DNA of 24,083 bases, taken from a virus. The position numbers were made by a program, and so were the translations under genes. The notes beneath the pieces were generated by a model. That model had not been told where the DNA came from. It made no database searches and saw only the letters and a list, made by a program, of their open reading frames with translations. The stretch spans positions 1 through 24,083 of the IMG/VR virus record IMGVR_UViG_3300025108_000383; one strand, written 5' to 3'. Below, piece after piece: positions 6,362 to 24,083 of the stretch; the stretch's first letter is position 1, and each line of letters begins with the position of its first letter.

Positions 6362-6830
6362 TAGTATTAAAACAATTATAGGCGCAGTTGCGCCGACACT
6401 AGGTACGGCTTTGGGCGGCCCTCTTGGGGGTGCTGCAGCATCTGCAATAGCGGGAGTGTTAGGGTGTAAGAATGATGAGAAATCCATCGAGAAGGCACTA
6501 CAAACCGCCAGTCCAGAACAACTGGTTGAGATTAAAAAGGCCGAGCTGGATTTTGAGAAACGACTTGCGGAATTGGAAGTCGATGTATTCGAGCTTGAAA
6601 CGGCTGATGTCCAAGACGCTAGACGTTCTTTTGCAGGTGATTGGACACCTCGTATACTGGCCGTTGCTAGTTTTATTATGTTTGGTGGTTATATTTTTAC
6701 TGTTACTTTTCTTCCTGTCGAGAGCACTTCAGAGACTACTGTCGCGCTAGTGTTAGGGTATATGGGAGGCATTGTAAGTGCTGTGACTTCATACTACTTC
6801 GGAGCGAGTAATACCGATGACAAAGTTTAA
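6351..6830 (+). CDS. holin, 3-TM type
   Basis: A 159-residue protein. An N-terminal Gly/Ala-rich hydrophobic segment (residues 8-38, IIGAVAPTLGTALGGPLGGA, then AASAIAGVLG) is followed by a charged helix (43-90, with EKALQTASPEQLVEIKKAEL and DFEKRLAELEVDVFELE). Two TM segments follow (about 101-122 and 129-150). WTPR (98-101) just before the second TM is a mark I recall of the holin family called 'holin of 3TMs, for gene-transfer release'. Holins open the inner membrane at a set time so the lysin can reach the wall. It overlaps the upstream gene by one base (TGATG) and the M15 gene by 14 bases, which is the expected holin-endolysin pair. Confidence 0.83.
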   Translation: MKFDSIKTIIGAVAPTLGTALGGPLGGAAASAIAGVLGCKNDEKSIEKALQTASPEQLVEIKKAELDFEKRLAELEVDVFELETADVQDARRSFAGDWTPRILAVASFIMFGGYIFTVTFLPVESTSETTVALVLGYMGGIVSAVTSYYFGASNTDDKV

Positions 6831-7167
6831 ATACTTTAAATTAGAAGAGTTTGACTGCCAAGAGACTGGCGAGAACGACATGCAGGAAGAGTTTATTTAT
6901 GCGTTAGACCGCCTGCGAGAAGAGTGCGGGTTTGCATTCACAATTACTTCTGGGTATAGAAGCCCTACGCATTCAATCGAAGCTAAGAAAGCTGTTCCGG
7001 GAACTCACAGTCAAGGTATAGCTGCTGATATAAAGGTTACTGGTGGGGCACAACGATTTAAAATTGTAGAACAAGCGCACCGTCTCGGGTTTGGTGGTAT
7101 TGGCGTGGCTAAGACGTTTGTTCATGTTGATATTAGAAGCACAACGCCCGTGCTGTGGGTGTACTAG
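6817..7167 (+). CDS. endolysin, M15-type peptidase (D-Ala-D-Ala carboxypeptidase fold)
   Basis: A 116-residue single-domain enzyme. Residues 44-50 TSGYRSP, H64-x6-D71 within THSQGIAADIK, and FVHVDIR (101-107; H103, D105) form the M15 zinc-binding and catalytic pattern SGYRS...HxxGxAxDI...HxD. It is the Peptidase_M15_3 type and cuts peptide cross-links of peptidoglycan. The N-terminal KYFKLEEFDCQETGEN-D is the usual start of this family. It has no signal peptide, so it would need the upstream holin to reach the wall. The first 14 bases overlap the holin gene. The length is normal for the family. Confidence 0.86.
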   Translation: MTKFKYFKLEEFDCQETGENDMQEEFIYALDRLREECGFAFTITSGYRSPTHSIEAKKAVPGTHSQGIAADIKVTGGAQRFKIVEQAHRLGFGGIGVAKTFVHVDIRSTTPVLWVY

Positions 7168-7170
7168 GGG
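7166..7170 (+). promoter_or_regulatory. ribosome-binding site AGGGG setting the start at 7176
   Basis: AGGGG overlaps the TAG of the endolysin gene (7165-7167) and ends five bases before the ATG at 7176. It favours this ATG over an upstream in-frame GTG at 7155, which would lengthen the protein by seven residues. Confidence 0.6.
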
Positions 7171-7175
7171 TAACA

Positions 7176-9050
7176 ATGCCGTTACGTAAATTAGAACTTG
7201 CACCGGGTGTGAACAAAGAAGGCACCCGATACAGCACCGAAGGTGGGTGGAACGACTCCGACAAAGTACGGTTTCGCAAGGGCTTACCTGAAAAAATTGG
7301 TGGGTGGCGTCGGGTGTCCGAAGCTACGTTCAACGGGGTTGCCCGATCTATTCATACGTGGGTTAATCTAAGTTCTGACAGGTACACAGCCGTAGGCACG
7401 AACACTAAGTTTTATATAGAGTACGCCAGCGCGTATAACGACATAACTCCACTAAGAAGTACCACTAGCGCGGGAGACGTAACTTTTTCTGCGGCTGATG
7501 GGGACGCTACTATAACCGTTACTGACACAGCACACGGGGCTTCGGTAAACGATTTTGTCACCTTTTCGGGTGCTGTTTCTTTGGGCGGTAACATTACAGC
7601 GGCTGTCCTCAACGCAGAGTATCAGATAACAGAAATAGTAAACGCCGACAGCTACAAGTTTGAGGCAAGTGCTACAGCTAATAGCTCTGACTCGGGTAAC
7701 GGTGGGGGTAGTGTTGTAGGTAAGTACCAAGTCTCTGTGGGTTCTGATGTAGTAACCGCTAGAACGGGCTGGGGTTCTGGTACGTGGGGCGCGAATACTT
7801 GGGGTGCGGGACAAAGTTCTACTTTGTTTTTACGTACGTGGAGCCAAGCAAACTTCGGGGAAGATTTAGTATTTGGCCCTAGAGAGGGGCAGCTATATGT
7901 GTGGGATGGGCAAAATGCAGTCACTACACGGGGTGTTTTAGTGTCCAGTCTGGGAGGCGCGTCTAGTGTCCCAACAAAACAGAACATCATATTGGTATCA
8001 GACATAAATAGATTTGTATTTTGTTTTGGTACCCACGCGTATTTAGACGGTACGGAGACGCTTGACCCGCTGCTCATTCGGTGGTCAGATCAAGAGAGCC
8101 TTGTAGAATGGGCACCATCTAGCACAAACCAAGCGGGTAGCCTACGTTTATCAAACGGTAGTGCGATTGTTGCTGCGGAACAGGCACGACAAGAAGTTCT
8201 TGTATGGACAGACGCCGCGTTGTACGCACTGCAGTATGTTGGGTTTCCTGACGTATGGACAGCACAACTTGTTGGAGAGAACATATCCATAGCCTCACAG
8301 AACGCTGTGGCGTACGCCAATGGTATTGCTTTTTGGATGGGTAAAGATAAGTTTTATACATACGATGGCAACGCAAAACCTCTCCCTTCTTCTTTGCATA
8401 GGTATGTATTTGACGATATAAACCTATCGCAGCTTGGGCAAGTTGTGGCGGGGACTAACGAAGGATTTAACGAGGTGTGGTGGTTCTACCCGTCTACTGA
8501 CCAAACAGTAAATGACAAATATGTAGTCTACAACTACTTAGAGAATATATGGTACCACGGCAACTTGGGGCGTACGGCGTGGGAAGATTCTGGTATTCGT
8601 CAAGCTCCACTAGCTGCAACCTACAGTAATAATCTGGTAGAGCATGAGATAGGGGTAGATGACAGAGAGACAGCTACACCTGCGAGTATAAACGCATACA
8701 TAACATCTTCAGAATTTGACTTAGAGGACGGTCATAACTTTGCCTTTGTTTGGAGAGTAATTCCTGACCTTACGTTCACAGGGTCTACCGAGGGTGCGCC
8801 ATCCTTATCTATGACACTGTTTCCTCTGGACAGCTCGGGTTCTGGGTATAATACGCCAACTTCAGAGGGGGGTGTAAACACAGGCACTATAACTCAAGGA
8901 GTTACTGTAAGCGTAGAACCTTATACAACACACATAAACACCCGTGTGCGAGGGCGACAGATGGCGATAAAAATAGAGTCTACAGATTTAGGAGTAATGT
9001 GGCAGTTAGGCTACCCTCGCATAGACATGCGACCTGACGGGAGACGCTAA
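7176..9050 (+). CDS. tail nozzle / tubular-B-like structural protein
   Basis: A 624-residue protein. The first 60 residues (PLRKLELAPGVNKEGTRYST, EGGWNDSDKVRFRKGLPEKI, GGWRRV) are a pattern I recall at the start of long marine podovirus structural proteins. The body is β-rich with motifs such as ITPLRSTTSAGDVTFSAADG, LFLRTWSQANFGEDLVFGPR and LYVWDG, then a propeller-like run (VLVWTDAALYALQYVGFPDV; AFWMGKDKFYTYDG; VWWFYPST; YVVYNYLENIWYHG). Such repeated 'xVWxxxxxL' strands suit a tail-tube nozzle or P22-gp10-like hub. It would form the distal short tail below the adaptor. The typical start and an AGGGG site select 7176. It ends in TAATG with the next fibre gene. Confidence 0.62.
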   Translation: MPLRKLELAPGVNKEGTRYSTEGGWNDSDKVRFRKGLPEKIGGWRRVSEATFNGVARSIHTWVNLSSDRYTAVGTNTKFYIEYASAYNDITPLRSTTSAGDVTFSAADGDATITVTDTAHGASVNDFVTFSGAVSLGGNITAAVLNAEYQITEIVNADSYKFEASATANSSDSGNGGGSVVGKYQVSVGSDVVTARTGWGSGTWGANTWGAGQSSTLFLRTWSQANFGEDLVFGPREGQLYVWDGQNAVTTRGVLVSSLGGASSVPTKQNIILVSDINRFVFCFGTHAYLDGTETLDPLLIRWSDQESLVEWAPSSTNQAGSLRLSNGSAIVAAEQARQEVLVWTDAALYALQYVGFPDVWTAQLVGENISIASQNAVAYANGIAFWMGKDKFYTYDGNAKPLPSSLHRYVFDDINLSQLGQVVAGTNEGFNEVWWFYPSTDQTVNDKYVVYNYLENIWYHGNLGRTAWEDSGIRQAPLAATYSNNLVEHEIGVDDRETATPASINAYITSSEFDLEDGHNFAFVWRVIPDLTFTGSTEGAPSLSMTLFPLDSSGSGYNTPTSEGGVNTGTITQGVTVSVEPYTTHINTRVRGRQMAIKIESTDLGVMWQLGYPRIDMRPDGRR

Positions 9051-10375: not shown

Positions 10376-10840
10376 ATGGAACTTAAAAACGGGGTAACGA
10401 ACCAAGTACCGCCGCCAGAAGTTGTAATGGGGGCGTTGGAAAATTCAAATGTAAACGTGGAAGACGCGACCAAGCTGTTTACGGGTTTTATTACTATGCC
10501 CACAACAGTCCAAGTGCAGGTGAATAACACTGTGTTTGTGTACGCTGAAGCCAACAAGGAACATAAGGGTGAGGTTGTATGTTATATATACAATATCGAC
10601 ATAGAAAAAAATATGACTGATAACATCCTCAAGTTCTTGGACACCGTGCACCGTCGTGGAGTGGCTGCGGTTACGTTTCTTACCAAAGATAGTATGTTCT
10701 ATCGTGGGTTTATGCGGGCCTTACCTGACATAAACACGAGAGGTACTAAGGCAGGTATTGGGGAACAACAAAAGCGTAACTTATTTGTCGCCCGTGTAGT
10801 GTTTGGCGATAAACCGAAACCTAAGAAAAAGAAACGATGA
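10376..10840 (+). CDS. unassigned phage protein with Lys-rich tail
   Basis: A 154-residue protein beginning ELKNGVTNQVPPPEVVMGAL. Residues about 50-115 alternate strands and helices: VQVQVNNTVFVYAEANKEHK, EVVCYIYNIDI, NILKFLDTVHRRGVAAVTFL, then MFYRGFMRAL. This order is loosely GNAT-like, and it lies directly before a true GNAT gene, but no acetyl-CoA loop is visible. The end (about 147-154) is KPKPKKKKR, a charged tail like those of the small basic proteins at the start. A strong G-run (10367-10372) serves as ribosome-binding site. It overlaps the next gene by four bases (ATGA). The function is unknown. Confidence 0.6.
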   Translation: MELKNGVTNQVPPPEVVMGALENSNVNVEDATKLFTGFITMPTTVQVQVNNTVFVYAEANKEHKGEVVCYIYNIDIEKNMTDNILKFLDTVHRRGVAAVTFLTKDSMFYRGFMRALPDINTRGTKAGIGEQQKRNLFVARVVFGDKPKPKKKKR

Positions 10841-11298
10841 AAGTGACTGTTCGAGAAGGCGTATCCGCAGACATAACACCTATGGTGACGATGGGTAAGC
10901 GTATGCACGAAGAGAGCGTGTTTGCTAAGTTTAACTGGAACGACGCTAAGGTCACGCAGTTCGGCAAGTTAGCAGTATCGCGTGACGACACTTGTTTCTA
11001 CGTAGCTGAAGTAGATGGTGTACGTGCGGGTATGATTGTTGGCGCGTTAGTCCCTTATTACTTTGGAGACGACCTGCAGTTAGGTGAGTATCTATGGTAT
11101 GTGGCCCCTGAGTACCGTGGCACTTCCGCAGGTATACGGTTAGTTAAGAAGTTCATAGAGTTTGGAAAGGCTCACGACGTAAAAGAAGTGTGTATGGGCG
11201 TAAGCACGGGGATAACCCCCGACACAACAGGTAAACTCTTACAAAGATTAGGGTTTAATTCCATCGGCGGTATATTTAAGTATGGGGTAGGTGCATAG
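10837..11298 (+). CDS. GNAT-family N-acetyltransferase
   Basis: A 153-residue protein. Motif A is YVAPEYRGTSAGIRLVKKF (88-106), with the acetyl-CoA pyrophosphate loop R94-G-T-S-A-G99. Upstream strands (TCFYVAEVDGVRAGMIVGAL, 52-71) and the C-terminal TGKLLQRLGFNSIGGIFKYG (131-150) follow the GNAT plan. It would transfer an acetyl group from acetyl-CoA to an unknown amine. Similar single-domain GNATs are common near marine phage tail genes; they might modify a virion or host protein, but no substrate is shown. It starts in an ATGA overlap and is followed by a three-base gap to the giant gene. Confidence 0.83.
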   Translation: MKVTVREGVSADITPMVTMGKRMHEESVFAKFNWNDAKVTQFGKLAVSRDDTCFYVAEVDGVRAGMIVGALVPYYFGDDLQLGEYLWYVAPEYRGTSAGIRLVKKFIEFGKAHDVKEVCMGVSTGITPDTTGKLLQRLGFNSIGGIFKYGVGA

Positions 11299-11301
11299 CG
11301 T

Positions 11302-14300
11302 ATGTGCGGCGGGTGGGTTGGTAGAGTAACTGGCTTAGATAATTTTCGAGACGAAATCCTCGATGACTTTCTTGGTGTTGTGCCCGGAAAAGGCGGTCTG
11401 GTAGGAGACGCGCTTGAGGACGTAAACGACTTTTTATTTCGTGGCGGGCTTGAAGACGTTATCCGTGATGCTGGTCGTTGGATAGATGACGAGATAATTC
11501 AACCTGTATACGAGTTTCAAAAAGTATTTTTCCAAGTACTTATAGACGACCCACTCTATGCTGCCGCAATGATTACTGCGGGGCTAATCTATCCCCCCGC
11601 CATACCCTACATCGTCGCAATAAAAACAAAATCCGACGGTGGAACATGGGAGGAGGCAATCATAGCGGGGGCAACGGCTTACGTAACGCAGCAAGTAGCG
11701 CTACAAGTTGGTGAGTACGTTCCCGGTATAGAGTCTGAGTTAGCCGTAGCATTAACTGACGCGGGGCTATCTGCTTCCACTGCTGCATCCGTTGCCCAAG
11801 TCGCAGTAGGACTTACTGCTTCTGGACTTACCACTGGCACAATCGAAGTTATATTTGGCGGCAGTTTTAGTGATGGGTTCGCAGAAGGAGCGATTACATA
11901 CGGTGCGCAGTTCGCTGTAAGTAAAGCCGCAGGATTTATTGAGGACAAGACTGGATTTGAGTTTAGGCAATCAAAAGCACAGACTGATGCCGATGGCAAC
12001 GTAGTAACCGACGAGTTTGGTCAAACGGTGTATGAGACTAACGCTTCGGGTGAAATTGTAAAAGAGTTTAAGAAATTACCTAACGTAGTTCAGGCACTGG
12101 TCGTTGACTCCATTGCGGCGGAGTTACAAGGGAAGGAAATAACAAAAGAACTACTGTTAGGGTCTATATCAAGATCACTCATAACTGAAGAAGTTGTGGG
12201 GGAAACATTATCTAAGATAGACACTGCCCTGTTGGGCGGTGATGGCAACCTAACTGAAGACGGAGAATACTTCTTATCGTTTCTTACGCCCGCAGTGCAA
12301 GATGCAGCTACTGCGATAGCGAGTATGGGTGTAGGCGCTGAGTCGGGCGCTGCAGCAGCAAATTTACTACTTGAGGCGGTAGAAGAGTACGGTCTTGAAT
12401 CATTAGGAGAGGAGTTTGTAAACAACGCCTTATTTGCTGTAGACAGTCTGCGAGGCGTTATAGATGAGGTCACCGCCGCTAAAACTGCTCTCGACGAAGC
12501 GGTCGTTGGGTACGAAACAGTCGCAGAGGCTAGGAACGCTATCGCTTCAGAGCTTAATACTATAAGTGAACAGTATCAGCTAGAAATAGACCGTATAGCA
12601 TCTGACCCTAGTGGTGCGCTGTACACCACGTTGGTGGAGCAATTTAACAATAGTTTACAAGCTGTAACTGATGCCGACGGGAACATAAGGTACGAAGTAA
12701 AAGCGGGGGATGCGGGGTATCCTGCTAACTTGGGTTACACTTCAGTGGAAGAGTACTATCGTGATGTTGTTACGCAAACCCCGACCTACATAGACGATAA
12801 CGGTAACACTCAAGAATACGCCTCGTTTGAGCAGTTGCAGTTTGGACTACAAGAATCAAAACGCGCTGCGAAGCTATACCAAGATACCCGTGAACAGTAT
12901 GAAACCCAACTTCTTGACTACAACTCACAGTTAGAGGCACTCCAGACTGCGTTTGATACGGCGTCAACGGATTACAAAACCGCCAACGACAGCCTGCTAT
13001 CCGATGTCGAAGCCCTCGACGAAGAATTTAAGGTCAACGCTACAGCCCCTGCGATAAAAGAATTCGTGGAACTTATAAACCCCACGTTTAATGCGGATCA
13101 ATACGTAGCTTTAAATGAGCTAAACATATCTGCTTTAGATGCGCATAGACACTACGTGGAAGAAGGAGCTAGGTTAGGTTATTTTGTAAGTGACGCCCAA
13201 GAAGATGCGTTTGAAAAGAACGCAATAGGACAGTTACGTTCTGCGGCAGAGACTGCGATAGGCGTCCCAACTGAACGTATGACTACCGCACAGTTAGACG
13301 AGTTTAACCGACTTGTGAACACTGCGAGCGACGACATTTACTACGATGATCTCGGCAACTTCACTGCTGATAAGGCGATACAGCGAGAGTATTTAGACGC
13401 TGAAGGCAACCCGATTGTGGGGCCATTCACGCCAGAACAAGTAGCTAGTATAGCCAGTGCGTCATTGAGTTACAGTCCTGATTTTGTAAACACCATTGCG
13501 GATATAGCTGGTGGTTACGATTCCTACCTCGCAGGTGAAGGGGCTACTGTAGAAGAGCTACTGGCGCAGGATAAACAGACTATAGCAAAAGCCAACGAGG
13601 TTTCGTGGCTGGACGTGCTTAACGCTGGCGGAGTCGGTTACAACGAGACTACTGGACGTAAAGAGTATGTGACTGCATTGAAAGACGGGGAAAACAACCT
13701 CACGTTTTTTGACGCCATAACAGGTCAGAACAATTTGTTGGTTCAAGGCCAGTCAATAGACGAGCTTGCGGAGACATCGCCGCAGTCGTGGTACGAAGCT
13801 ACAAAAGAGATATTTAGCGGAATTGCAGAGACAGCAAAAACGCGTATAGGTGATACTGCAGAGTTGATTTCTGAAGCGCAATTAATTAAGTCGCAGGCAA
13901 ATGAAGAAGTGGGTCGCATCGTTGCAGATGAAGGTGAGAAAGCCCTGTGGACTGCGGGCATACTGGCCAAACATGCGATTATCGAGTCCCTTGATTTTGC
14001 GTTTACCAAAATTGATGAAGCAGCTATTGCTTTGTTTGATCCCACACAAGCGAGTAGCGTACTTAACTGGAGTCAAGAGGGCGTACAGGCTAAGAAAGAT
14101 ATGCTTCTCACTGCCGCGACGGACGCGTATGAGTTTGCCAGTAACATACCTCAATACAAAAAAGATTTCGCTGGAACCACTATCAGTGGGCTGGCGGGGC
14201 TTACACAAGATGTTGTCAGCTTAATACGATGGTCGGGGGAAAACACAAAAAACACCACCGCGTACCAGTTTGCCGAGAATCTAATACAGACCACCAACGG

Positions 14301-17300
14301 GTGGAAAACCGATGAATTTAAGGCTGGTAGTGCTGAGTTAAATCGGAAACTGAGCGCCCGAGCGGTCGATGACCCCAACACCCCACAGAACGAAGCTGTC
14401 ATAGATACACTGGGTATTATATTTGGTGCAGCCGCTGACCACCCTTACGAGTTTGGTCTGGATTACATATATAAAGAAGGTATACAGGAGATTGCCCCTT
14501 TAATCGTGGGTGGGTTTACGTACGCAGCGGGTAAAGTTGGCGCTGGGGTGCTAGGGAAAGATGTATCAAAGGAGTTCCTCACTAAGCTAGGTTTCGCAGC
14601 CTCAGGGCTGACTGACATCGCCGAAAGTGCTGGGGGTACAACTGAAGCAGCATACGATGAAGCACTCGCGGAAATAGAGGCCGCATTAATAGCTCGTAGA
14701 GACAGTAATGAAAACATTACATGGTCAAACAAACAGATAGAACAGATAGCCGACTACTATGCGCAGGACATAGCGGTTAAAAACGGTATGTTTGCGGCTA
14801 TGACCACTGCTGCTTTGTTATGGGCGGGGAGTGCGGCATTAGAAAAACCCAACATAGGTCTAGGAACTGGCTTCGATAAGTATGACGACGCGTTTCAAAC
14901 TTACGCCCGAAAGATGGATACCGATTACAAAGCGTGGTTAGCTCAAAGCGGTAAAGTTGCTGGGAAAGAAGCTGTAAGTGAATTCACCGAAGAGTTCCTC
15001 ATAAACGATAACCTCGAAACTATGCTTGCGGAGTGGAACCCTGAGCGTAATGTAGAAGGTAACAATTTATTCAATGGCTTTTTAGGTGCGGTAATAGCTG
15101 GCCCAGTTACGTTCAGCATTGATGCTATTGTGAACGCGCCCTCTATTGATGGGCTAGACGCGACACCGTCGTTTGAAGAAGCTACAGGGCGTACGCGGTT
15201 CCAATCTACCGGTGACACAACCGCTGACTTGTTATTGCTTAATAGGGACGTGCAAGAAACAGTGTATGCAGGCACTGCTGACTTGGCGACAGTATTAGGT
15301 ACTTACGGTCTAAGCACTGACACGTTAGACGCGCTACAAGATGCCGCCAATGACCCTGACTTTTTAGGTAGCTACGGCCAGATACCTGACTTAGCGGATA
15401 GGTCGCAGAACAACGATGTACGTAAACCGCCGCCTAACTTTACAGAGTTCCCAACAGGCACACAGAACGAGTTGTACTACGACCCCAACACCGACGCTAC
15501 GTATAAATTTAACAACGGTGATTGGCAGTTAGGTGGTTCCGGCAACAATTTATCGGCGCTAACCCCTATATCGGCTAATCCTGCCGATGCGTATAACTAT
15601 GAGCGTCAAGGCGCAAATGATGCGGTTGTGAGCAAACCGGCTACGTTTAGTGTGTTTACAGACCCTGTGTCGGGTTTAGAGTATGTGTTAGAGAGGGCTG
15701 TGGCGTACGAGCTGTACACAGATGATGAGGGGACGTTTAATTTTCAGGACAAAAGTGGAGCTTACTTACACGCGTATATAAGTGACGCCCCGTCTACCGC
15801 TCAGTTGGCGCAAGAATTAAAGCGTATAGCCGACCAAGTGGTCGCAGAGAAATACTCTAATGTTACAGATACCACCGACTTAGCACTTGTTAATAGTGCT
15901 AGAAATTTCTATACGGCTCTCCCAGCTCTAACCGGGTATGTCGTAGACACAACTGCACAGGCGTTCGTATCACCCTTTGAGCAAAGGGCTGACTATTTGT
16001 TTAGGGATACACCTCAACAAGTGCTGGCAGAGGAAAATCCACAAAGCGGTAACACCCTAACAGGGCTTATAAAAACGCTAAACACCCTTGCTTACCGCTT
16101 TACGAATAACAATATTACTCAGACGCAGTTCGATATTCTATGGCCGCAGTACAAGTATCTCTTTGAGACTACGTACCCGATAATACAAACACAACGAGAA
16201 CTGCGTGGGCTATCTGCTGATGATGATATTTACTCTACACAGTTCATAGACGGAAGCGTACCTACAATTTTTAGTACGTTGCCCGAAGCGAGCGGTACTG
16301 TACAACTAGACAGTCAGTACGGCCCGGAGTTTAATCCCAGCTCCAGCTACGATTTTAATAACCCAGAAGCTAGTTACATACCTGATAATTTAGTGACGGC
16401 GGGGGCGGAAGTAACTCCAGAGGTTTTACTCGCGGCTTTATACCCAGAAGGTTATGTTACTGACGGATCGGGTAGGTTTTACGCACAGAAAGCGTTACCT
16501 ACAGAGCCTGTCACGACAGGGTTGTATGACAGTTGGACAGACGACCCAGAATACCGACCAATATCTACACAAGGCCAGTCTTGGCGCGACCCATTAAGCG
16601 CATCTGATGCTGGTGCTCAGGTGCTTACGTCTAACAAACCTATAGACACCCGTACGCTTTACGAACGACTTAATACGCTAGACGACGGAGGTACCCTACC
16701 TAGTAATTGGGCGGGGTCTAATGAATTTTATTACAACAACGGTGTCTGGACGTATGAAAATAGTAACGGGCAAGAGTCTTACCTTAAAAAACTTAGGAAG
16801 AACGCTGACGGTACTTTATACCGCGATGCTAATGGTAACTACGAACGGACTGACGAAAATGTCACAACAAGCGAGGAGCTGTTGGAGCGCCTCTACCCCA
16901 CACAGTTGTACCCTGCAGGGCCGCCAACACTAAGTTCTGCTGGTATAGATTATACAACCACTAAAGAACTTAACGACCAGTACGAAGCTGACTTACTCCA
17001 ATACTTTTTCACCGAGTCTATCGACAACGGGTGGGCTGCTACTGATGCCGCAGACTACGTGTTCCGTAACGGACAAGCCATTGCCGACAACATGCGCGGT
17101 ATGGATGCGGCAGCGTTTGATGCGTACTACGTAACAGGCGCAGAAGGACAAACGTTTAATACCATTGACCCCTCGCCGCCGTTTACTGCTAGTTCGTTCA
17201 AGAAGTTTATGCTTGATAAGTATAACTTCAACGAAGAGGACTACTACGCCAGCCTAGCTAATCTAGGTAGTGACCCTACTGCTGTAGATAATGCACTAGA

Positions 17301-20300
17301 CGTATTTTTTAGTGCCAACCCAGACTCTGCTAAGTTAAATAGCCCTACCGTACAAGGCTTTATAACCGATAACTACAACTCCGAAGCTGATGTCACCGCC
17401 GCGTTGAAAGCGGAGTTTGGGGAAGACTATATACCGACGGCAGAGGAGTTAGACAAGTACGTTGGTTCCCGCTGGATTAGCGGGCAGAAAACTAACATTA
17501 CGGAAAGAATAGACGCTGAGTTCTACACTGATGCAGAAAAAACAGAAGATGTACAGAACATTGCGAGCATAGCGAGTAGCCGAGCGGAAACACTGGGCTA
17601 TGCCCCTGATGCGTTTACCGAAGCGGAGTTTGCTAACCTAATAAACCCTGAGCTTGGTCAAGAAGCAAATGTCAACATACTCAACAACTATTATCAAAGC
17701 AGAACTATTGATGAGAATAGGTGGGTTGATTTATTAAAAGAGCGGTTAGGGGATGAACTCTACCTAGAGTTCGGTAGACAGGGTAATGATACTCTATCGG
17801 ATTTTCAAGCTAGCGATTTAGCGGGTGAACGAAGCAGGGAGTTGTACGCCAAATACAAGATAGGCTCTAACGTAGGGACAGTAGAGACTGCTGACCTCGC
17901 CGCCGCGTTCGCTGAAGCTGAAGCAGGGCTACCCGTTACAGGCACGCCACCTACACCACCTACGCCACCAAGAGAGCGTTTAGATGGTGCATCACTCAGA
18001 GAACTTGCGAAATCACAGTACGGGTTTACAGACGCGCAGTACGATTCATTCGTAGCATATACATTTAGACCTGACCTTGTTGATGAAGAGAATACGACTT
18101 TCACCGCGCCCAGTGTAAAAACATTAGCCGCTGCTGAAGAGGCAGCGCAACTATACCTTACTGAAAACGAAGTGTACGTAGATAGCACAGATATTCTGGA
18201 CGCTACGTTTAGTCAGTGGGCGCAAACAGAAGAAGAAGTCCTCGCCGAGTTCCGAAAAGAGCGTCCTGATTACGAGCTAACTCAAGCGGATATAGATAAG
18301 TATGTAGGTGTTATCGGTTTTTCAGACCCTGACGGCGGCCAAGCAGCGAATCTAACTAGCATTGACGCCGAGTTTGCAACCGAAGCCGAAAGAGACACGG
18401 CAGTAGCGAACTTCTTAGCAGCACCTATTGGTGGGGGTTTTACAAATGCCGATGTTTATAGTGAGGCCGAGGCACGGGCGGCGTTAGAAGAAGGGTTTAT
18501 AGGACGTAGTAGTTTTGCTGACGAGTCACTTACCAGTGTGATAACCAACGGTGTTAATAGAAAAATACCCTCTTTTTCAAACATTGCAATTAATTTATTA
18601 GGCGAACTACAAATACAGTTTGATGATTCGGTATCGGTAGAGGATCAACGTAAGTACGCAAGAGGGCGTCTTAACGCCACCGGTTATTGGGCTGATATAG
18701 TAGCGTCTGTAGCAGCCGGTGAGAGTTACACCACCGCCGACGTATATGCCCTTGAGTCTTATCAAAATCTTATAGCGGAAGAGAACGCCAAAGTTACTAC
18801 GGTAGATGAAGTTAGGGCGTACTTTGAATCAGAAGGGTTTGACGTTAGTAACTTAACAGACGAAGAGTTAAGAGCTATACCCGGGCTAGTTGGCGATACC
18901 TTAGATAACCGCATAAGTGATATAGACTCGGCAAACGAAGTCGACGCTATTAGTGTTACGAAGCAGGAAGTTATTGATTACCTGATAGATCTGGGCTACC
19001 AAGAGAGCGATGTTAAAGCTGCAGCTGACAACGGCGAATTTTCTGGGTTTACCGGTGTAAACGTGTTGGAGAGAGATCTTGGTACATTCACTAGCAGTTT
19101 CCAAGAAACATACGAAACAGAAGAACAGCGTGATGCGCGACTAGAAGCAGAGCAACAACGAGCAGACACAATAACAGCGTTTGGTAGCTACACGCCGACA
19201 GAAGAAGAGATAGCACAGTTCCTTGATAACAATGAAGGTATTGCTGATTACATAGCCCCGCGCCAGTTTACTCGTGCTGAAGCAGAAGCTGCGGTTGCCG
19301 CACAAGGCATATCACCGACAGTTACCGACAACGATGGGAACGAAGTACCTAATCCCACGTTTGAAGTGTTGGTCAACGGCTTAATAAACTTACAAGGTGA
19401 TGAAACCACACAAGCTACACAAGAAGCTGCAGCGGTTACACAGGCTGATCCTTACTATATAGATCAAGGGGAAGTAGACGCTGAGTTCGCTAAGTATGGG
19501 TACTTCGATACTACCGGCATTGATACGTCTACTTACACAGGCGAGGCGTCGGAGAGCAACCTTGAAGGTACTATATCGAGTTTTGTAGACGCAAACTACT
19601 CTGACGAAGCCGAAGCAAGAGCTGCATTAGAAGCGGAAGGGTTTATCATACCTGAAGACTTTGACTTCACTCCGTTCGTAGGCCAGTTCAACAATGCCGA
19701 GTTAGGAAACAGAGTAACTCCGTTTGCAGCTAATAACATTGTTACTGCAGAAGAGGCTAGGGCTGCGTTAGACGCCGTAGAAGGTATTGATGCTTACGCT
19801 GTAGATGAAAACGGCGACTACCTTATTACTGATGAACAGCTCGCGGGGCTAGAGTTATCTGGACAATACCTACAAACTGATCTGGGTAGCCGCGTAGACG
19901 CACAGACGGTGACCGATGCCGAAGCAATAGCGGCATTACAAGCTGTGTTTGGTGCTGAGTACGTACCGTCGGCAGAGGAGATAGCACAGTTTCAGGGTCT
20001 AACACCGCAATCAGGTTTGTCTACTGAAGTCGCTAGGTATCAGGACGAGACACTGAACCGACTTGAAGGGGATATTGGTGACTTAACTGAAACTGTATCA
20101 ACCCTAGAAGCACGCATAAACGGCATACTGGCAGCGGGCGGTACTTTAGACCAAGCGATAGCAACCGTATCCAACGATCTAAACATATCTATAACCGCTC
20201 TGCAGGACATCGTTACTGCAAACGCTGATAAGTTTACTACCGACCTGCAAAACACGCTGTTAGAAGCCAACATCTATACTGATCAGCGAATAAACACTAT

Positions 20301-21468
20301 CAACCAAGCGTTGCAAAATGCAATTCAGCAGTTTGGTAGCGATATAGAGGCAGCGAAAGCAGCGGCAGCGGCAGAACTAGGACTCGAAGTTGGTACCCTG
20401 CAAGGGTTTATCAATGCTAACGAGCAGGCACTTACCGACCTCGGCACTGATGTAACCAGCCTGACAACACGTGTTGAGGACGTGGAAGACACGCTTGCGG
20501 GCGTCGTATCTCAGATAGGTCAACCTGCGGTTTACGATGGAGTCGGTAACGTAATAACTCCAGCGACAGGGCTGTACGCTGACATCGACGCGATGATAAC
20601 CGCTGGATTTACCAGCGAACAAGCTACAGCAGCTATACAAGCTGTGTTGGGCGACCCCGCCACCGGAACCGGTATCTATGCGTACATAGACACTTTGGAC
20701 TTGGCAACGACTGCTCAACTAGCCGCGCAGGTAAGCAGCTTAGAAGATTATGTCAGTGCACAGGGCTTCGCCACTACCGATGATTTGTCGGGACTGTCTG
20801 ACCAGATACAGGTAGTAGCAGACGCGTTAGGTAAACCAGCGGAACAAGTCACGCAAGAAGACTTGGATTATGTCAACGATGTAATACAGAGCAACATATT
20901 ACAGCCTGATGCTACGTTCACACAGCAAGACTTAGCGTATGATGTAAACCAAGACGGAATTGTAAACCTCGACGATTACGCAATTCTTGAGCAGTTGTAC
21001 GGCGGTGATGTTTCCGTAGAGGGACTTGACCCCACATCACAATTTGCAGCCACGGGAGTTTTTGCTACACTAGCAGAGCAAGAACGTCAACGACAAATTG
21101 ATGCAGAGGCTGCTAGGGCTGCGGATTTAGCTACGCAACAAGATATAAATGAGCAACTTGAGCAACAAATAGCCCAACAAACACAAATTACCAACGTGGT
21201 TATGCTCGACCAAGCGATAAGAGAAGCGGAGCAGGCGGCTGCACTTCAGCGTCAACGGCAGATACAAGCCCAGCAACTAGACTCAGACTTGGCCGAAATA
21301 GATTACATATACGATTTTGAGGGGATATTACAGCGCCCAGAGCAAGAGCCTTTGTACGGCTCTCCGTTTGGTGCAGGTGCCCAACAATTTGGTATGCGAC
21401 GAGCCGCAGCGAAAGGCGGCCTAATAAAGAATGAAACTGATCGACTGATACAGTTATTAGGTGAATAA
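11302..21468 (+). CDS. giant virion-type repeat protein (3,388 aa)
   Basis: One uninterrupted 10.2-kb frame. Visible parts in order: an N-terminus with a hydrophobic stretch (about 77-103, DPLYAAAMITAGLIYPPAIP); a coiled-coil-like region (about 400-575); a motif NPTFNADQYVALNEL...AHRHYVEEG (593 on); hydrophobic Gly/Ala segments at about 1065-1085, 1163-1180 and 1257-1276; two NE[LF]YY...TY segments near 1389 and 1807; a degenerate repeat array (about 2024-2910) with a PPTPPTPP hinge at 2216-2223; a coiled coil from 2914; a dockerin/EF-hand-like loop (3214-3225); and an end with IDYIYDF and AAKGGLI (3369-3375). Only one cysteine (residue 2) is seen. This layout matches giant proteins I recall from marine phages. 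An internal ejection protein or long appendage is inferred. GGGG/AGG before the ATG serves as ribosome-binding site. No polymerase or lysozyme motif seen. Confidence 0.72.
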   Translation: MCGGWVGRVTGLDNFRDEILDDFLGVVPGKGGLVGDALEDVNDFLFRGGLEDVIRDAGRWIDDEIIQPVYEFQKVFFQVLIDDPLYAAAMITAGLIYPPAIPYIVAIKTKSDGGTWEEAIIAGATAYVTQQVALQVGEYVPGIESELAVALTDAGLSASTAASVAQVAVGLTASGLTTGTIEVIFGGSFSDGFAEGAITYGAQFAVSKAAGFIEDKTGFEFRQSKAQTDADGNVVTDEFGQTVYETNASGEIVKEFKKLPNVVQALVVDSIAAELQGKEITKELLLGSISRSLITEEVVGETLSKIDTALLGGDGNLTEDGEYFLSFLTPAVQDAATAIASMGVGAESGAAAANLLLEAVEEYGLESLGEEFVNNALFAVDSLRGVIDEVTAAKTALDEAVVGYETVAEARNAIASELNTISEQYQLEIDRIASDPSGALYTTLVEQFNNSLQAVTDADGNIRYEVKAGDAGYPANLGYTSVEEYYRDVVTQTPTYIDDNGNTQEYASFEQLQFGLQESKRAAKLYQDTREQYETQLLDYNSQLEALQTAFDTASTDYKTANDSLLSDVEALDEEFKVNATAPAIKEFVELINPTFNADQYVALNELNISALDAHRHYVEEGARLGYFVSDAQEDAFEKNAIGQLRSAAETAIGVPTERMTTAQLDEFNRLVNTASDDIYYDDLGNFTADKAIQREYLDAEGNPIVGPFTPEQVASIASASLSYSPDFVNTIADIAGGYDSYLAGEGATVEELLAQDKQTIAKANEVSWLDVLNAGGVGYNETTGRKEYVTALKDGENNLTFFDAITGQNNLLVQGQSIDELAETSPQSWYEATKEIFSGIAETAKTRIGDTAELISEAQLIKSQANEEVGRIVADEGEKALWTAGILAKHAIIESLDFAFTKIDEAAIALFDPTQASSVLNWSQEGVQAKKDMLLTAATDAYEFASNIPQYKKDFAGTTISGLAGLTQDVVSLIRWSGENTKNTTAYQFAENLIQTTNGWKTDEFKAGSAELNRKLSARAVDDPNTPQNEAVIDTLGIIFGAAADHPYEFGLDYIYKEGIQEIAPLIVGGFTYAAGKVGAGVLGKDVSKEFLTKLGFAASGLTDIAESAGGTTEAAYDEALAEIEAALIARRDSNENITWSNKQIEQIADYYAQDIAVKNGMFAAMTTAALLWAGSAALEKPNIGLGTGFDKYDDAFQTYARKMDTDYKAWLAQSGKVAGKEAVSEFTEEFLINDNLETMLAEWNPERNVEGNNLFNGFLGAVIAGPVTFSIDAIVNAPSIDGLDATPSFEEATGRTRFQSTGDTTADLLLLNRDVQETVYAGTADLATVLGTYGLSTDTLDALQDAANDPDFLGSYGQIPDLADRSQNNDVRKPPPNFTEFPTGTQNELYYDPNTDATYKFNNGDWQLGGSGNNLSALTPISANPADAYNYERQGANDAVVSKPATFSVFTDPVSGLEYVLERAVAYELYTDDEGTFNFQDKSGAYLHAYISDAPSTAQLAQELKRIADQVVAEKYSNVTDTTDLALVNSARNFYTALPALTGYVVDTTAQAFVSPFEQRADYLFRDTPQQVLAEENPQSGNTLTGLIKTLNTLAYRFTNNNITQTQFDILWPQYKYLFETTYPIIQTQRELRGLSADDDIYSTQFIDGSVPTIFSTLPEASGTVQLDSQYGPEFNPSSSYDFNNPEASYIPDNLVTAGAEVTPEVLLAALYPEGYVTDGSGRFYAQKALPTEPVTTGLYDSWTDDPEYRPISTQGQSWRDPLSASDAGAQVLTSNKPIDTRTLYERLNTLDDGGTLPSNWAGSNEFYYNNGVWTYENSNGQESYLKKLRKNADGTLYRDANGNYERTDENVTTSEELLERLYPTQLYPAGPPTLSSAGIDYTTTKELNDQYEADLLQYFFTESIDNGWAATDAADYVFRNGQAIADNMRGMDAAAFDAYYVTGAEGQTFNTIDPSPPFTASSFKKFMLDKYNFNEEDYYASLANLGSDPTAVDNALDVFFSANPDSAKLNSPTVQGFITDNYNSEADVTAALKAEFGEDYIPTAEELDKYVGSRWISGQKTNITERIDAEFYTDAEKTEDVQNIASIASSRAETLGYAPDAFTEAEFANLINPELGQEANVNILNNYYQSRTIDENRWVDLLKERLGDELYLEFGRQGNDTLSDFQASDLAGERSRELYAKYKIGSNVGTVETADLAAAFAEAEAGLPVTGTPPTPPTPPRERLDGASLRELAKSQYGFTDAQYDSFVAYTFRPDLVDEENTTFTAPSVKTLAAAEEAAQLYLTENEVYVDSTDILDATFSQWAQTEEEVLAEFRKERPDYELTQADIDKYVGVIGFSDPDGGQAANLTSIDAEFATEAERDTAVANFLAAPIGGGFTNADVYSEAEARAALEEGFIGRSSFADESLTSVITNGVNRKIPSFSNIAINLLGELQIQFDDSVSVEDQRKYARGRLNATGYWADIVASVAAGESYTTADVYALESYQNLIAEENAKVTTVDEVRAYFESEGFDVSNLTDEELRAIPGLVGDTLDNRISDIDSANEVDAISVTKQEVIDYLIDLGYQESDVKAAADNGEFSGFTGVNVLERDLGTFTSSFQETYETEEQRDARLEAEQQRADTITAFGSYTPTEEEIAQFLDNNEGIADYIAPRQFTRAEAEAAVAAQGISPTVTDNDGNEVPNPTFEVLVNGLINLQGDETTQATQEAAAVTQADPYYIDQGEVDAEFAKYGYFDTTGIDTSTYTGEASESNLEGTISSFVDANYSDEAEARAALEAEGFIIPEDFDFTPFVGQFNNAELGNRVTPFAANNIVTAEEARAALDAVEGIDAYAVDENGDYLITDEQLAGLELSGQYLQTDLGSRVDAQTVTDAEAIAALQAVFGAEYVPSAEEIAQFQGLTPQSGLSTEVARYQDETLNRLEGDIGDLTETVSTLEARINGILAAGGTLDQAIATVSNDLNISITALQDIVTANADKFTTDLQNTLLEANIYTDQRINTINQALQNAIQQFGSDIEAAKAAAAAELGLEVGTLQGFINANEQALTDLGTDVTSLTTRVEDVEDTLAGVVSQIGQPAVYDGVGNVITPATGLYADIDAMITAGFTSEQATAAIQAVLGDPATGTGIYAYIDTLDLATTAQLAAQVSSLEDYVSAQGFATTDDLSGLSDQIQVVADALGKPAEQVTQEDLDYVNDVIQSNILQPDATFTQQDLAYDVNQDGIVNLDDYAILEQLYGGDVSVEGLDPTSQFAATGVFATLAEQERQRQIDAEAARAADLATQQDINEQLEQQIAQQTQITNVVMLDQAIREAEQAAALQRQRQIQAQQLDSDLAEIDYIYDFEGILQRPEQEPLYGSPFGAGAQQFGMRRAAAKGGLIKNETDRLIQLLGE
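17371..20040 (+). repeat. degenerate ~45-60-residue repeat array in the giant protein
   Basis: Residues about 2024-2910 hold roughly ten to twelve units. The shared frame is [VT]T-x-x-E-A-x-A-A-L-x-A-x-G-[FY] ... [PT]-T/S-x-E-E-[IL]-x-x-[FY]-x-G ... [IV]-D-A-x-[FY]. Clear units start near 2024 (SEADVTAALKAEFGEDYIPT), 2302, 2497 (VTTVDEVRAYFESEGFD), 2767 (SDEAEARAALEAEGF), 2813 (IVTAEEARAALDAVEG) and 2869 (TVTDAEAIAALQAVFGAEYV). The DNA of equivalent parts differs mainly at synonymous positions, so the array is old and held at the protein level. A Pro-Thr hinge at 2216-2223 splits it. It is known to me as a type in marine phage giant proteins; no function is known. Confidence 0.7.
20941..20976 (+). 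other. dockerin/EF-hand-like calcium loop in the giant protein
   Basis: Residues 3214-3225 read DVNQDGIVNLDD, followed by YAILEQL. The Dx[ND]x[D]Gx[IV]xxxD spacing is the loop of dockerin and EF-hand proteins, with ligands at positions 1, 3, 5, 9 and 12. Only one loop is seen; dockerins normally carry two. Calcium binding is therefore possible but unproven. Confidence 0.6.
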
Positions 21469-21471
21469 ATT

Positions 21472-23631
21472 ATGTCAAGTTTTGACTGGCTAGATAACCT
21501 TAGCAACAAAGCGTCTGACCTTTGGGATAGCACAGATTGGGGTACCGTTGCTCAATTAGGCGCTGGGGCGTATTTAACAGCCCGGGGTGTAGGCTCTCCG
21601 ACGTCTGACCCTGTGGGTTATCAAGGCAAAGTAGTGAAGCGCGTACCTATTCGTGAGCGTGTGCCACAGACGTATGACCCTAATAGACGCCCGGGTGAAG
21701 CAGGACGTCGTTATTTTACCAGTACGCAGTTCTTAGATAGCCCACAAGCAGCGAGTAACGTATCCAAGAGCGAGCGCATTTTAGACCCTACAGGTGCTCA
21801 AATTATAGGCACTGAAGCCATACCAGACCGTGTGTTGGGTGATACTCAAATTATTGGTACCACTGCAGTGCCCGACACGGTGCTAAGTGACAACCCAGTG
21901 ATTGGTACTGCTGTAGTGCCAGAAACTATTGACGACCCAGACAACCCCGGCACCGCTATCCCCAACCCTGCAAGGGAGGGCAAACAGTTTACAGCCGAGG
22001 GTTATGAGATACTTGATACGGCGTCGTATGACCCCGCTAAAGCGTACACATCTGACGGGTACGAAGTTATCTCTCAAGGAGAACGCAGCCTATTTAATAC
22101 CTATACTGACGACGGATTCTTAGTCCTTGACCCAACTTTATACGACCCTAACAAAACGTACAGCGAAACTGGGTTTGAGGTTTTGTCACCCAGTCAACGT
22201 GAGGAAGGCAAGCAGTACACTGCCGAAGGTTTTGAGGTACTAGACACCGATGCGTATGACCCTGATGCAACATACAGCGAAGAGGGTGTGCGTGTGGTAT
22301 CCCCAGAAGGTTTTTACACGCAAGAAGAGATAGCACGACAAGGAGCCAGAGCGGAAGCGTTAGGGCTAGCTGCTCTTAATGAAGCCAACCCTGTGTTAGC
22401 TGCGAAAGGCGGGATAATGAAGACTCGGGAGTACAATCGCGGGGGAAATGTACAACAAATGACCGGTGGGCGGTATTTGGCCGGAACCACTGACGGTATG
22501 GCTGATGAGGTACCTTCTAGTATAGACGGTGTGCAGCCCGCTGCATTAAGCGACGGCGAGTTTGTCATACCTGCAGATGTAGTGAGTCACTTAGGCAACG
22601 GTAACTCTACCGCTGGAGCAAAGGTATTAGACGATATGATGACCAACGTACGTAAAGCACGCACGGGTAACCCGGAGCAGGGGAAAGAAATTAACCCACA
22701 ACAAGTTATGTCGCGTGCGGGTGGCGGCCTTGCCAACTTACCGCAGTATGCAAGTGGAGGCACAGTAAAACGTTTTAGCAACGGGGGTACGACAGCAGAT
22801 GAAGCTACGGCGGCTTCTGATTTAGACACCCCAGATTTTACTGCTGAAGTAGCGGGAACCGAGGATTCGCTGGCTAACTGGGCCGGTGATTATGTAACTG
22901 ATTTTCTTGGTAGGGCGCAAGGCTTGGCTGATCTGCCGTATGAAGCCTATACTGGCCCATTAACTGCGGGTGCTTCGGGTATTCAACAAGAAGCGTTTGG
23001 CACTGCGGGCACTATGGATACGAGTGGCACCCAGATGGGAGCGTTCGACCAAGCAGCAGCACAACAGTACATGAACCCTTACATGGACGCTGCACTACAA
23101 CCACAAATACGTCTCGCACAAGAAGAAGCTGCGCGGCAGCGACTAGAAAACGCCAGCCGTATGACTCAAGCCGGTTCGTACGGAGGGTCACGCCAAGCTA
23201 TATTGGAAGCGCTAAACCAGCAAAACTTAGCTCAAAATATATCCGATATTACAGCACAAGGGTACAACACAGCGTATGAACAAGCACGTGACCAGTTTGG
23301 CCGCGAGAAAGACTACGGCCTTGCTGCACTACAAACGCAAGGCGAGCTAGGCCGAATACAGCGTGATATTGCAGCTGAAGGTATAGCTGCAGACAAGGCG
23401 CAGTTTGAGGAAGAGCGAGACTTTGAATACAAGATGCCTACGTATTTGTCTTCACTCTTGCAGGGGCTACCCACAAACGCGAGAAACACTACTTACACAC
23501 AACAAGACTCGCTGTCACAGGCCATAGGCAATACCGCAGGTGTTTCAGAATTGTACGATTTTCTTTTCCAAAACAACAACGATAGCAGCAACAATAACAG
23601 CAACAACAATGACAGCAACAGCAGCAATTAG
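21472..23631 (+). CDS. repeat-bearing virion-type protein (719 aa)
   Basis: Residues 1-100 start SFDWLDNLSNKASDLWDSTD and continue to basic VVKRVPIRERVPQTYDPNRR. Residues 108-155 are three 16-residue repeats and 170-283 six 19-residue repeats. Next come AAKGGIM (310-316), a Gly-rich RGGNVQQMTGGRYLAG, and the block DGMADEVPSSIDGVQPAALS-DGEFVIPADVVSHLGNG (about 341-378). I recall that block as a common mark of marine phage structural proteins. ASGGTVKRFSNGG follows at 427-439. The C-terminal half is helical and Gln/Ala-rich (YMNPYMDAALQPQIRLAQEE; GGSRQAILEALNQQNLAQNI). The last 19 residues are Asn/Ser/Asp only. A virion or ejected role is inferred. AGGTGA precedes the ATG; the gap to the giant gene is three bases. 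Confidence 0.7.
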   Translation: MSSFDWLDNLSNKASDLWDSTDWGTVAQLGAGAYLTARGVGSPTSDPVGYQGKVVKRVPIRERVPQTYDPNRRPGEAGRRYFTSTQFLDSPQAASNVSKSERILDPTGAQIIGTEAIPDRVLGDTQIIGTTAVPDTVLSDNPVIGTAVVPETIDDPDNPGTAIPNPAREGKQFTAEGYEILDTASYDPAKAYTSDGYEVISQGERSLFNTYTDDGFLVLDPTLYDPNKTYSETGFEVLSPSQREEGKQYTAEGFEVLDTDAYDPDATYSEEGVRVVSPEGFYTQEEIARQGARAEALGLAALNEANPVLAAKGGIMKTREYNRGGNVQQMTGGRYLAGTTDGMADEVPSSIDGVQPAALSDGEFVIPADVVSHLGNGNSTAGAKVLDDMMTNVRKARTGNPEQGKEINPQQVMSRAGGGLANLPQYASGGTVKRFSNGGTTADEATAASDLDTPDFTAEVAGTEDSLANWAGDYVTDFLGRAQGLADLPYEAYTGPLTAGASGIQQEAFGTAGTMDTSGTQMGAFDQAAAQQYMNPYMDAALQPQIRLAQEEAARQRLENASRMTQAGSYGGSRQAILEALNQQNLAQNISDITAQGYNTAYEQARDQFGREKDYGLAALQTQGELGRIQRDIAAEGIAADKAQFEEERDFEYKMPTYLSSLLQGLPTNARNTTYTQQDSLSQAIGNTAGVSELYDFLFQNNNDSSNNNSNNNDSNSSN
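21793..21936 (+). repeat. three 16-residue tandem repeats
   Basis: Residues 108-155 of the 719-residue protein align as GAQIIGTEAIPDRVLG, DTQIIGTTAVPDTVLS and DNPVIGTAVVPETIDD, a 48-base period with the shared core [IV]IGTxA[IV]P[DE]. They are followed within 15 residues by a second, different array. Confidence 0.75.
21979..22320 (+). repeat. six exact-length 19-residue tandem repeats
   Basis: Residues 170-283 divide without gaps into six 19-residue units (57-base period): GKQFTAEGYEILDTASYDP, AKAYTSDGYEVISQGERSL, FNTYTDDGFLVLDPTLYDP, NKTYSETGFEVLSPSQREE, GKQYTAEGFEVLDTDAYDP and DATYSEEGVRVVSPEGFYT. The core is YTxxG[FY]EV[LI]. Units 1 and 5 are almost the same, and units ending YDP (1, 3, 5) alternate with others, suggesting duplication of pairs. 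Confidence 0.82.
23572..23628 (+). repeat. Asn/Ser/Asp low-complexity tail (AAC/AGC-rich triplets)
   Basis: Residues 701-719 read NNNDSSNNNSNNNDSNSSN, coded by runs of AAC, AAT, AGC and GAT/GAC triplets. It ends the 719-residue protein and is likely disordered. Triplet slippage could change its length between relatives. Confidence 0.75.
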
Positions 23632-23639
23632 AGAGAATT

Positions 23640-24083
23640 ATGGCTAATTACAGAGACGGTATAGCGGGACTGGCCAGTGGTATTAACCATACTGCGGCTA
23701 TGAACATGAACACCCCACAGAAGATAAAGCCTAAAGGCGGTAATCAAGGTATTACTGACCAGCTTGTCGATGCTGCTGCATACGCGGAAGTTGTCAACAA
23801 ACAAAAAGCAGCTAAGAACCAGATGCTAATGGCGCAAGCGCAGAAAGAAGGCACTGTAGCCGAGCAAATGCAGCAAGCGGCTATGGGTGGTGCAAGGGAG
23901 AAGTTATCGGGTACAGCACAACAAGTTGCCGATACTATGGGTACTCGACAGAAGCGAGCAGAAGGTGCGCAGCGTAATATGTTGAAAAAGGCTATGAACC
24001 CTCGACAGGGTATAGCTTCCATGATGCCGCGCCCAGCCCCACAACAGCGCCCTGCGCCGCCTACTCCTCAAGGTATGCCCCAA
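23640..24083 (+). CDS. Gln/Ala/Met-rich virion-type protein, 3' end cut by window
   Basis: An open frame from ATG 23640 with no stop in its 148 codons to the window edge. It begins MANYRDGIAGLASGINHTAA, then MNMNTPQKIKPKGGNQGITD and QLVDAAAYAEVVNKQKAA. The rest is helical and rich in Gln, Ala, Met and Lys, ending Pro-rich (PRPAPQQRPAPPTPQ). GAGAGAA lies upstream with close spacing, after the preceding TAG at 23629-23631. The KPKGGNQ piece shows the same KGG theme as its neighbours. Its position after two large virion-type genes suggests another virion or ejection component. Family not recognised. Confidence 0.65.
   Translation, partial: MANYRDGIAGLASGINHTAAMNMNTPQKIKPKGGNQGITDQLVDAAAYAEVVNKQKAAKNQMLMAQAQKEGTVAEQMQQAAMGGAREKLSGTAQQVADTMGTRQKRAEGAQRNMLKKAMNPRQGIASMMPRPAPQQRPAPPTPQGMPQ

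Follow-up and report, generated by a model that had tools for sequence, protein, structure and literature searches.

Two unlike tandem repeat arrays lie in the first half of a 719-residue viral protein, and the question that this locus raises is what they do there. The protein is encoded at 21472–23631 on the + strand of a stretch of 24,083 nucleotides (hereafter the window), which is positions 1–24,083 of the IMG/VR record IMGVR_UViG_3300025108_000383. An earlier note, made from the sequence alone, described three units of 16 residues and six of 19 residues, and both arrays are real. Between residues 96 and 300, the strongest lag is 38 (40 identities over 167 positions), followed by 19 (33 of 186) and 16 (26 of 189). 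Identity at lag 38 reaches 0.368 in residues 166–290, where the best of 5000 shuffles gives 0.2375, and residues 105–157 hold 17 lag-16 identities, where the best of 5000 shuffles gives 13, so that shuffling never attains either periodicity. The lag-16 test places the three 16-residue units at residues 107–154 (21790–21933, + strand), while lag analysis, shuffles and a profile of the units place the six 19-residue units at residues 171–284 (21982–22323, + strand), in the order 21982–22038, 22039–22095, 22096–22152, 22153–22209, 22210–22266 and 22267–22323. The whole, 21790–22323, agrees within one codon with the 21793–22320 given earlier. The 19-residue units follow each other without gaps. 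The two arrays stand back to back, as described, except for 16 residues (155–170; 21934–21981, + strand) between them, which, judged by eye, may be a degenerate fourth 16-residue unit.

The 19-residue units are of two alternating types, as the earlier note had seen: units 1, 3 and 5 end in YDP, and units 2, 4 and 6 belong to the other type. Units 1 and 5 are indeed the closest pair, but calling them nearly identical went too far, since they share only 13 of 19 residues and 74% of bases. All keep a Y-[TS]-x-x-G pattern with conserved Tyr/Phe and Gly positions, and the array is acidic (24 Asp and Glu against 7 Lys and Arg in 114 residues). Tandem Repeats Finder detects neither array in the DNA, and the periodicity therefore exists at the protein level only.

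The arrays are inserted in a composite protein. A conserved N-terminal block (residues 1–90; 21472–21741, + strand), with two predicted helices followed by GYQG ... RRPGEAGRRYF, precedes them, and further helices are predicted just past the 19-residue array (residues 284–311; 22321–22404, + strand). Then come the SDGEFV module, DGMADEVPSSIDG..LSDGEFVIPADVVSHLGNG (residues 335–407; 22474–22692, + strand), which is the most conserved part, and a helical domain, B (residues 460–685; 22849–23526, + strand). The protein ends in an Asn/Ser-rich tail (23569–23628, + strand), encoded by a 15-base tandem repeat that is present in the DNA at 23572–23620. Many relatives have two adjacent genes instead of this single reading frame: an A-type protein, made of the N-terminal block, a variable part and then the DGMAD...SDGEFVIPADVV module, and a B-type protein, mostly of about 260–350 residues. 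By simple motif matches, the SDGEFV and B motifs fall in one reading frame in 15 of the 110 relatives' loci (window not counted), and in many of the remaining loci they lie on neighbouring reading frames. Comparison with these loci indicates that the 719-residue protein is a fusion of two normally adjacent genes, a point which, like the slot of variable length described below, the earlier note had missed. The N-terminal block, the SDGEFV module and the helical domain are all kept across relatives.

The window protein itself has no PHROGs match at E up to 0.01, the whole 719-residue sequence matches no known family in PHROGs, Pfam (best E 0.19, below the cut-off) or NCBIfam, and PDB sequence searches returned nothing significant. 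Its relatives are more informative. The profile phrog_4287, annotated "DNA ejection protein", is matched by 31 of 91 relatives (best E 1.8e-9), and the match falls in B wherever its position was looked at; in L035, a relative from the same clade, it covers the C-terminal domain (residues 435–625, 2e-9). The family profile also aligns with gp27 of Sinorhizobium phage phiM5 (98.4% probability, E 1.1e-14), which is itself a phrog_4287 protein over almost its whole length (6.5e-91) and whose record (L121, 4785–6191) states that it was "detected in phage particle proteome". Domain B of phage DSL-LC04 aligns with the family profile at 98.6%. Like phiM5 gp27 and the corresponding proteins of MinM2 and DSL-LC04, the window protein has a homologous helical C-terminal domain with [YF]xNPY and GG[ST]R motifs, and its gene comes after a gp10-like tail gene. 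Unlike it, these relatives are not joined to the SDGEFV module and have no repeat slot, and phiM5 gp27 ends in an S74 chaperone. By analogy with phiM5 gp27 and its family, the 719-residue protein is probably located in the virion.

That chaperone opens another reading. The Peptidase_S74 chaperone is usual in fibres and spikes, and phiM5 gp27, which is distantly homologous to the B domain, bears the annotation tailspike/chaperone of endosialidase. Surface rods, moreover, are often built of small β-hairpin repeats. The window protein could then be an outward-facing fibre or spike whose arrays bind the host or hold the fibre, the number of repeats tuning reach or avidity. However, the chaperone in phiM5 gp27 is found at the C-terminus only, the protein being otherwise an ejection-family member; no S74, fibre or spike profile is found in the window protein with PHROGs, Pfam or NCBIfam; and its C-terminal half is predicted as long helices. 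A fibre or spike role is, in our view, quite unlikely.

In the DSL-LC04 equivalent of the A-type protein, the SDGEFV module matches several tape-measure PHROGs, and it aligns with the family profile at 91% probability; the window's own SDGEFV stretch reaches no better than E 0.6, with phrog_17300. The likeness to the tape measure proteins of long-tailed phages is limited to this short module, and the tail genes of the window, unlike those of tape-measure phages, are podovirus-like, so that the phage presumably lacks a long tail whose length could be set. The proposed role is the one of T7 gp14/gp15/gp16 and P22 gp7/gp20/gp16, ejected internal proteins which form a conduit across the envelope, even if the searches matched the window protein to the T7 or P22 ejection proteins neither in sequence nor in fold. 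PMC8954989 describes podovirus internal proteins as being ejected to build a conduit through the periplasm, with variable size and mosaic domains. PMC10386132 assigns phiM5 to a LUZ24-like lineage that has marine relatives, and describes internal virion protein genes near the tail-tube genes.

The surroundings of the gene also speak for an ejection protein. A P22 gp10-like stabilisation/tail protein (phrog_3287), a marker of the podovirus tail module, is encoded at 7155–9050 (+ strand). Directly upstream of the 719-residue reading frame lies the gene of a giant protein of 3388 residues (11302–21468, + strand), a homologue of which is kept upstream in many relatives, and downstream lies a reading frame cut by the end of the window (23640–24083, + strand), a homologue of which also follows the fusion protein in L035, L003, L004, L036 and L037. 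MinM2 and DSL-LC04 have their genes in a similar order, but for the giant gene, which precedes the fusion gene in the window. On the basis of its sequence, the locus is a podovirus tail and ejection module.

Other features of the window may be mentioned. The giant protein contains degenerate repeats of roughly 50 residues (by eye), with motifs such as FGxxYxPTxEExxxYxG, and a dockerin/EF-hand-like stretch at residues 3197–3230 which is sub-threshold (E 0.038); tblastn of its first 1000 residues against phage records found nothing. The tail module also encodes a GNAT-like acetyltransferase (10837–11298, weak NCBIfam rimI match) and a MepK-like peptidase (6817–7167, E 1.1e-5, below the cut-off), and an annotated GNAT is found downstream of the gp10-like gene in phage CRP-902 too. 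The window starts with two small Lys-rich proteins without family match (5–316 and 326–688).

The arrays occupy a slot, bounded by the motifs GRRYF and DGMAD, whose length ranges from 35 to 546 residues in 60 distinct slots including that of the window, a count restricted to proteins in which the bounding motifs could be recognised; many slots have about 60–70 residues. Five of the 60, those with z ≥4, were submitted to a shuffle test (200 shuffles each), and at most 1% of the shuffles were as good in each of them: the slots of the window, L074 (lag 42), L017 and L069 (lag 12) and L005 (lag 107). The last four are unrelated to the window's in sequence (by eye). In L017 (2225–4297), the slot has HTH-like Pfam matches (Xre-like-HTH, E 4e-6), and helical, HTH-like or Pro/Thr-rich stretches are seen in the slots of L017, L005, L063, L071 and L109. 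With contents so different, and some of them repetitive, the slot is, as far as these comparisons tell, a place where varied sequences have grown. Even between the window and L035, identities amount to 70 of 101 residues in the module and 131 of 226 in the B domain, against 61 of 182 aligned residues in the slot.

Such variety could mean that what fills the slot hardly matters, since four of the 59 other slots are repetitive and yet unrelated in sequence. The slot would then be a tolerant, nearly neutral insertion site and the repeats a filler harmless to folding, a reading with which the wide range of lengths, the lack of relationship between the contents in different clades and the variation of copy number within a clade (see below) are all consistent. 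Along with the outward fibre role, this is the main rival of the interpretation that we prefer, in which the arrays form a spacer. Closer relatives of the window help to weigh it.

The expectation that the length of the array varies among strains is borne out. The 19-residue units read with a profile number six in the window, three in L035 (685-residue protein), about three in L004 and two, weakly, in L003, L036, L037 and L049; in L035 a further degenerate unit of 23 residues is seen by eye. Because L035, L004 and the L003/L037 group had themselves contributed units to this profile, the counts are partly circular, and non-circular searches served as controls. A profile of the window's six units scores 168.6 bits on the real slot, against 7.4 bits for the best of 300 shuffled slots, and, among 5153 reading frames, the window units alone retrieve L035 at E 1.3e-8, followed by L004 (E 0.035); L003, L036, L037 and L049 (E 0.8–1.3) score barely better than unrelated reading frames (1.5). 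When L035 units are added to those of the window, in a profile that still excludes their own units, L004 and the L003 group reach E 0.057–0.12, the following reading frame being at 3.7; the values of 0.06–0.1 for L003, L036 and L037 and of 0.12 for L004 are weak support. In a tree of 55 relatives built from the module and the B domain without the slot, the six distinct carriers of 19-residue units form one clade (100/99), the bootstrap being not fully settled according to a program warning.

Queried with the repeat region, IMG/VR yielded no relative, and tblastn of the same region against 50,697 phage records found nothing at E up to 1. Twelve loci fit a DNA pattern for two successive units; none has a unit at E <1e-3, and they are taken as chance matches. 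Searched alone, the repeat region matches phrog_28832 (function not assigned in PHROG) over a stretch of 31 residues (E 0.0063). The queries L035 and L004 yielded one and three loci and no contig beyond those already in the set, and a scan of genome contigs added one relative, L212, which matches residues 325–597 only. The set of relatives comprises 32 from the IMG/VR scan with the protein and the best 80 of at least 552 from a profile scan, which returned an identical set of contigs when repeated; further carriers may exist among the relatives beyond these best 80.

The units are old. Where two 19-residue units have a residue in common, the codon agrees 34 times out of 94, against 36.1 expected from the codon usage of this gene, and the 16-residue units share 9 of 21 codons, against 7.2 expected; sharing at chance level indicates that the duplications are not recent. 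The aligned slots of L003, L036 and L037 show neither gaps nor a difference in length, so that no recent change is seen in this trio. A tandem repeat of DNA or a recent expansion is thus ruled out, and the idea that the arrays grew recently has to be given up. Growth by pairs, also put forward in the earlier note, is supported: units 2-3-4 of L035 share 26 identities with units 2-3-4 of the window and again 26 with units 4-5-6, against just 14 in the two out-of-phase registers. The 38-residue phase of two types is therefore common to the window and L035, the evolutionary unit looks like a pair of 19-residue units, and the two proteins may differ by the addition of a single pair.

The preservation of these units bears on the neutral filler. 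The Y-[TS]-x-x-G pattern, the exact spacing and the phase shared with L035 have been kept despite codon sharing at chance level, which suggests selection on the protein. In L003, L036 and L037, moreover, the slot is as conserved as its flanks. Against this background, we regard a neutral filler as unlikely, if not negligibly so.

Structure prediction gives a partial picture of the region. An AlphaFold2 model of the full protein, obtained from 91 sequences, has a mean pLDDT of 66 and a pTM of 0.41; the 19-residue units are mostly at 68–85, whereas residues 102–146, most of the 16-residue array, are at about 32–50 and not confidently modelled. The 16-residue units are thus probably flexible in this model, and most of that array may be disordered. 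Within each 19-residue unit, the model has a strand or bridge close to positions 3 and 9, and in most units positions 13–15 form a helical turn of three residues. The same pattern in each unit is obtained when the repeat region is modelled alone from six sequences (mean pLDDT 57, pTM 0.27). A hairpin per unit, as proposed from the sequence, is therefore retained: each 19-residue unit is predicted, with moderate confidence, to be a small β-hairpin followed by a helical turn.

The stronger proposal, that the units stack as the turns of a regular β-solenoid or rod and make a rigid strut, does not fare as well. The exact gapless spacing, the conserved Tyr/Phe and Gly positions and the periodic strand-turn-strand-helix pattern of both models would suit such a fold, but long strands are lacking, the bridges in each unit span one or two residues at moderate or low confidence, and the pTM values and the mean pLDDT of the fragment are low. 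A fold search of the PDB with the repeat fragment gave no match, a result which is in itself no evidence of a different fold. We hold a regular solenoid to be quite improbable. The B domain is modelled mostly as long helices (pLDDT 62–86), and long helices are the sole matches in the fold search with the whole model; fold matches in BFVD are mostly uncharacterised phage proteins.

The interpretation that we favour, by a modest degree, is that of a spacer of variable length in a fused ejection protein. The 719-residue protein would belong to a short-tailed phage, lie inside its virion and serve in DNA ejection, and the arrays would act as an acidic, modular spacer that determines how far the N-terminal block stands from the ejection domain. 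That the repeat-bearing stretch varies widely in length between related phages makes an adjustable spacer probable; its position, its length variation and its two-type phase are the features from which we infer this role. The spacer would lengthen or shorten by whole units, mostly by pairs, when the ejected proteins have to span the tail and the envelopes of different hosts. A more far-reaching version, in which several lineages have independently filled the slot with tandem units whose number corresponds to the distance across the host's envelope, so that the ejection protein carries a modular ruler, would account for hairpin units of 19 residues here and two-copy or low-complexity repeats in other lineages; it is a highly doubtful one.

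The ejection family was already known, while neither the libraries nor the papers searched showed the clade-specific, repeat-filled slot; in open-licence PMC full-text searches, no title or abstract start that was found describes the repeats. The ejection proteins of environmental podoviruses are poorly known, and this clade offers a natural series of about two, three and six units in a slot between conserved blocks. With such a series one could ask whether ejection proteins are fitted in length to the cell envelope, much as tape measures are to the tail.
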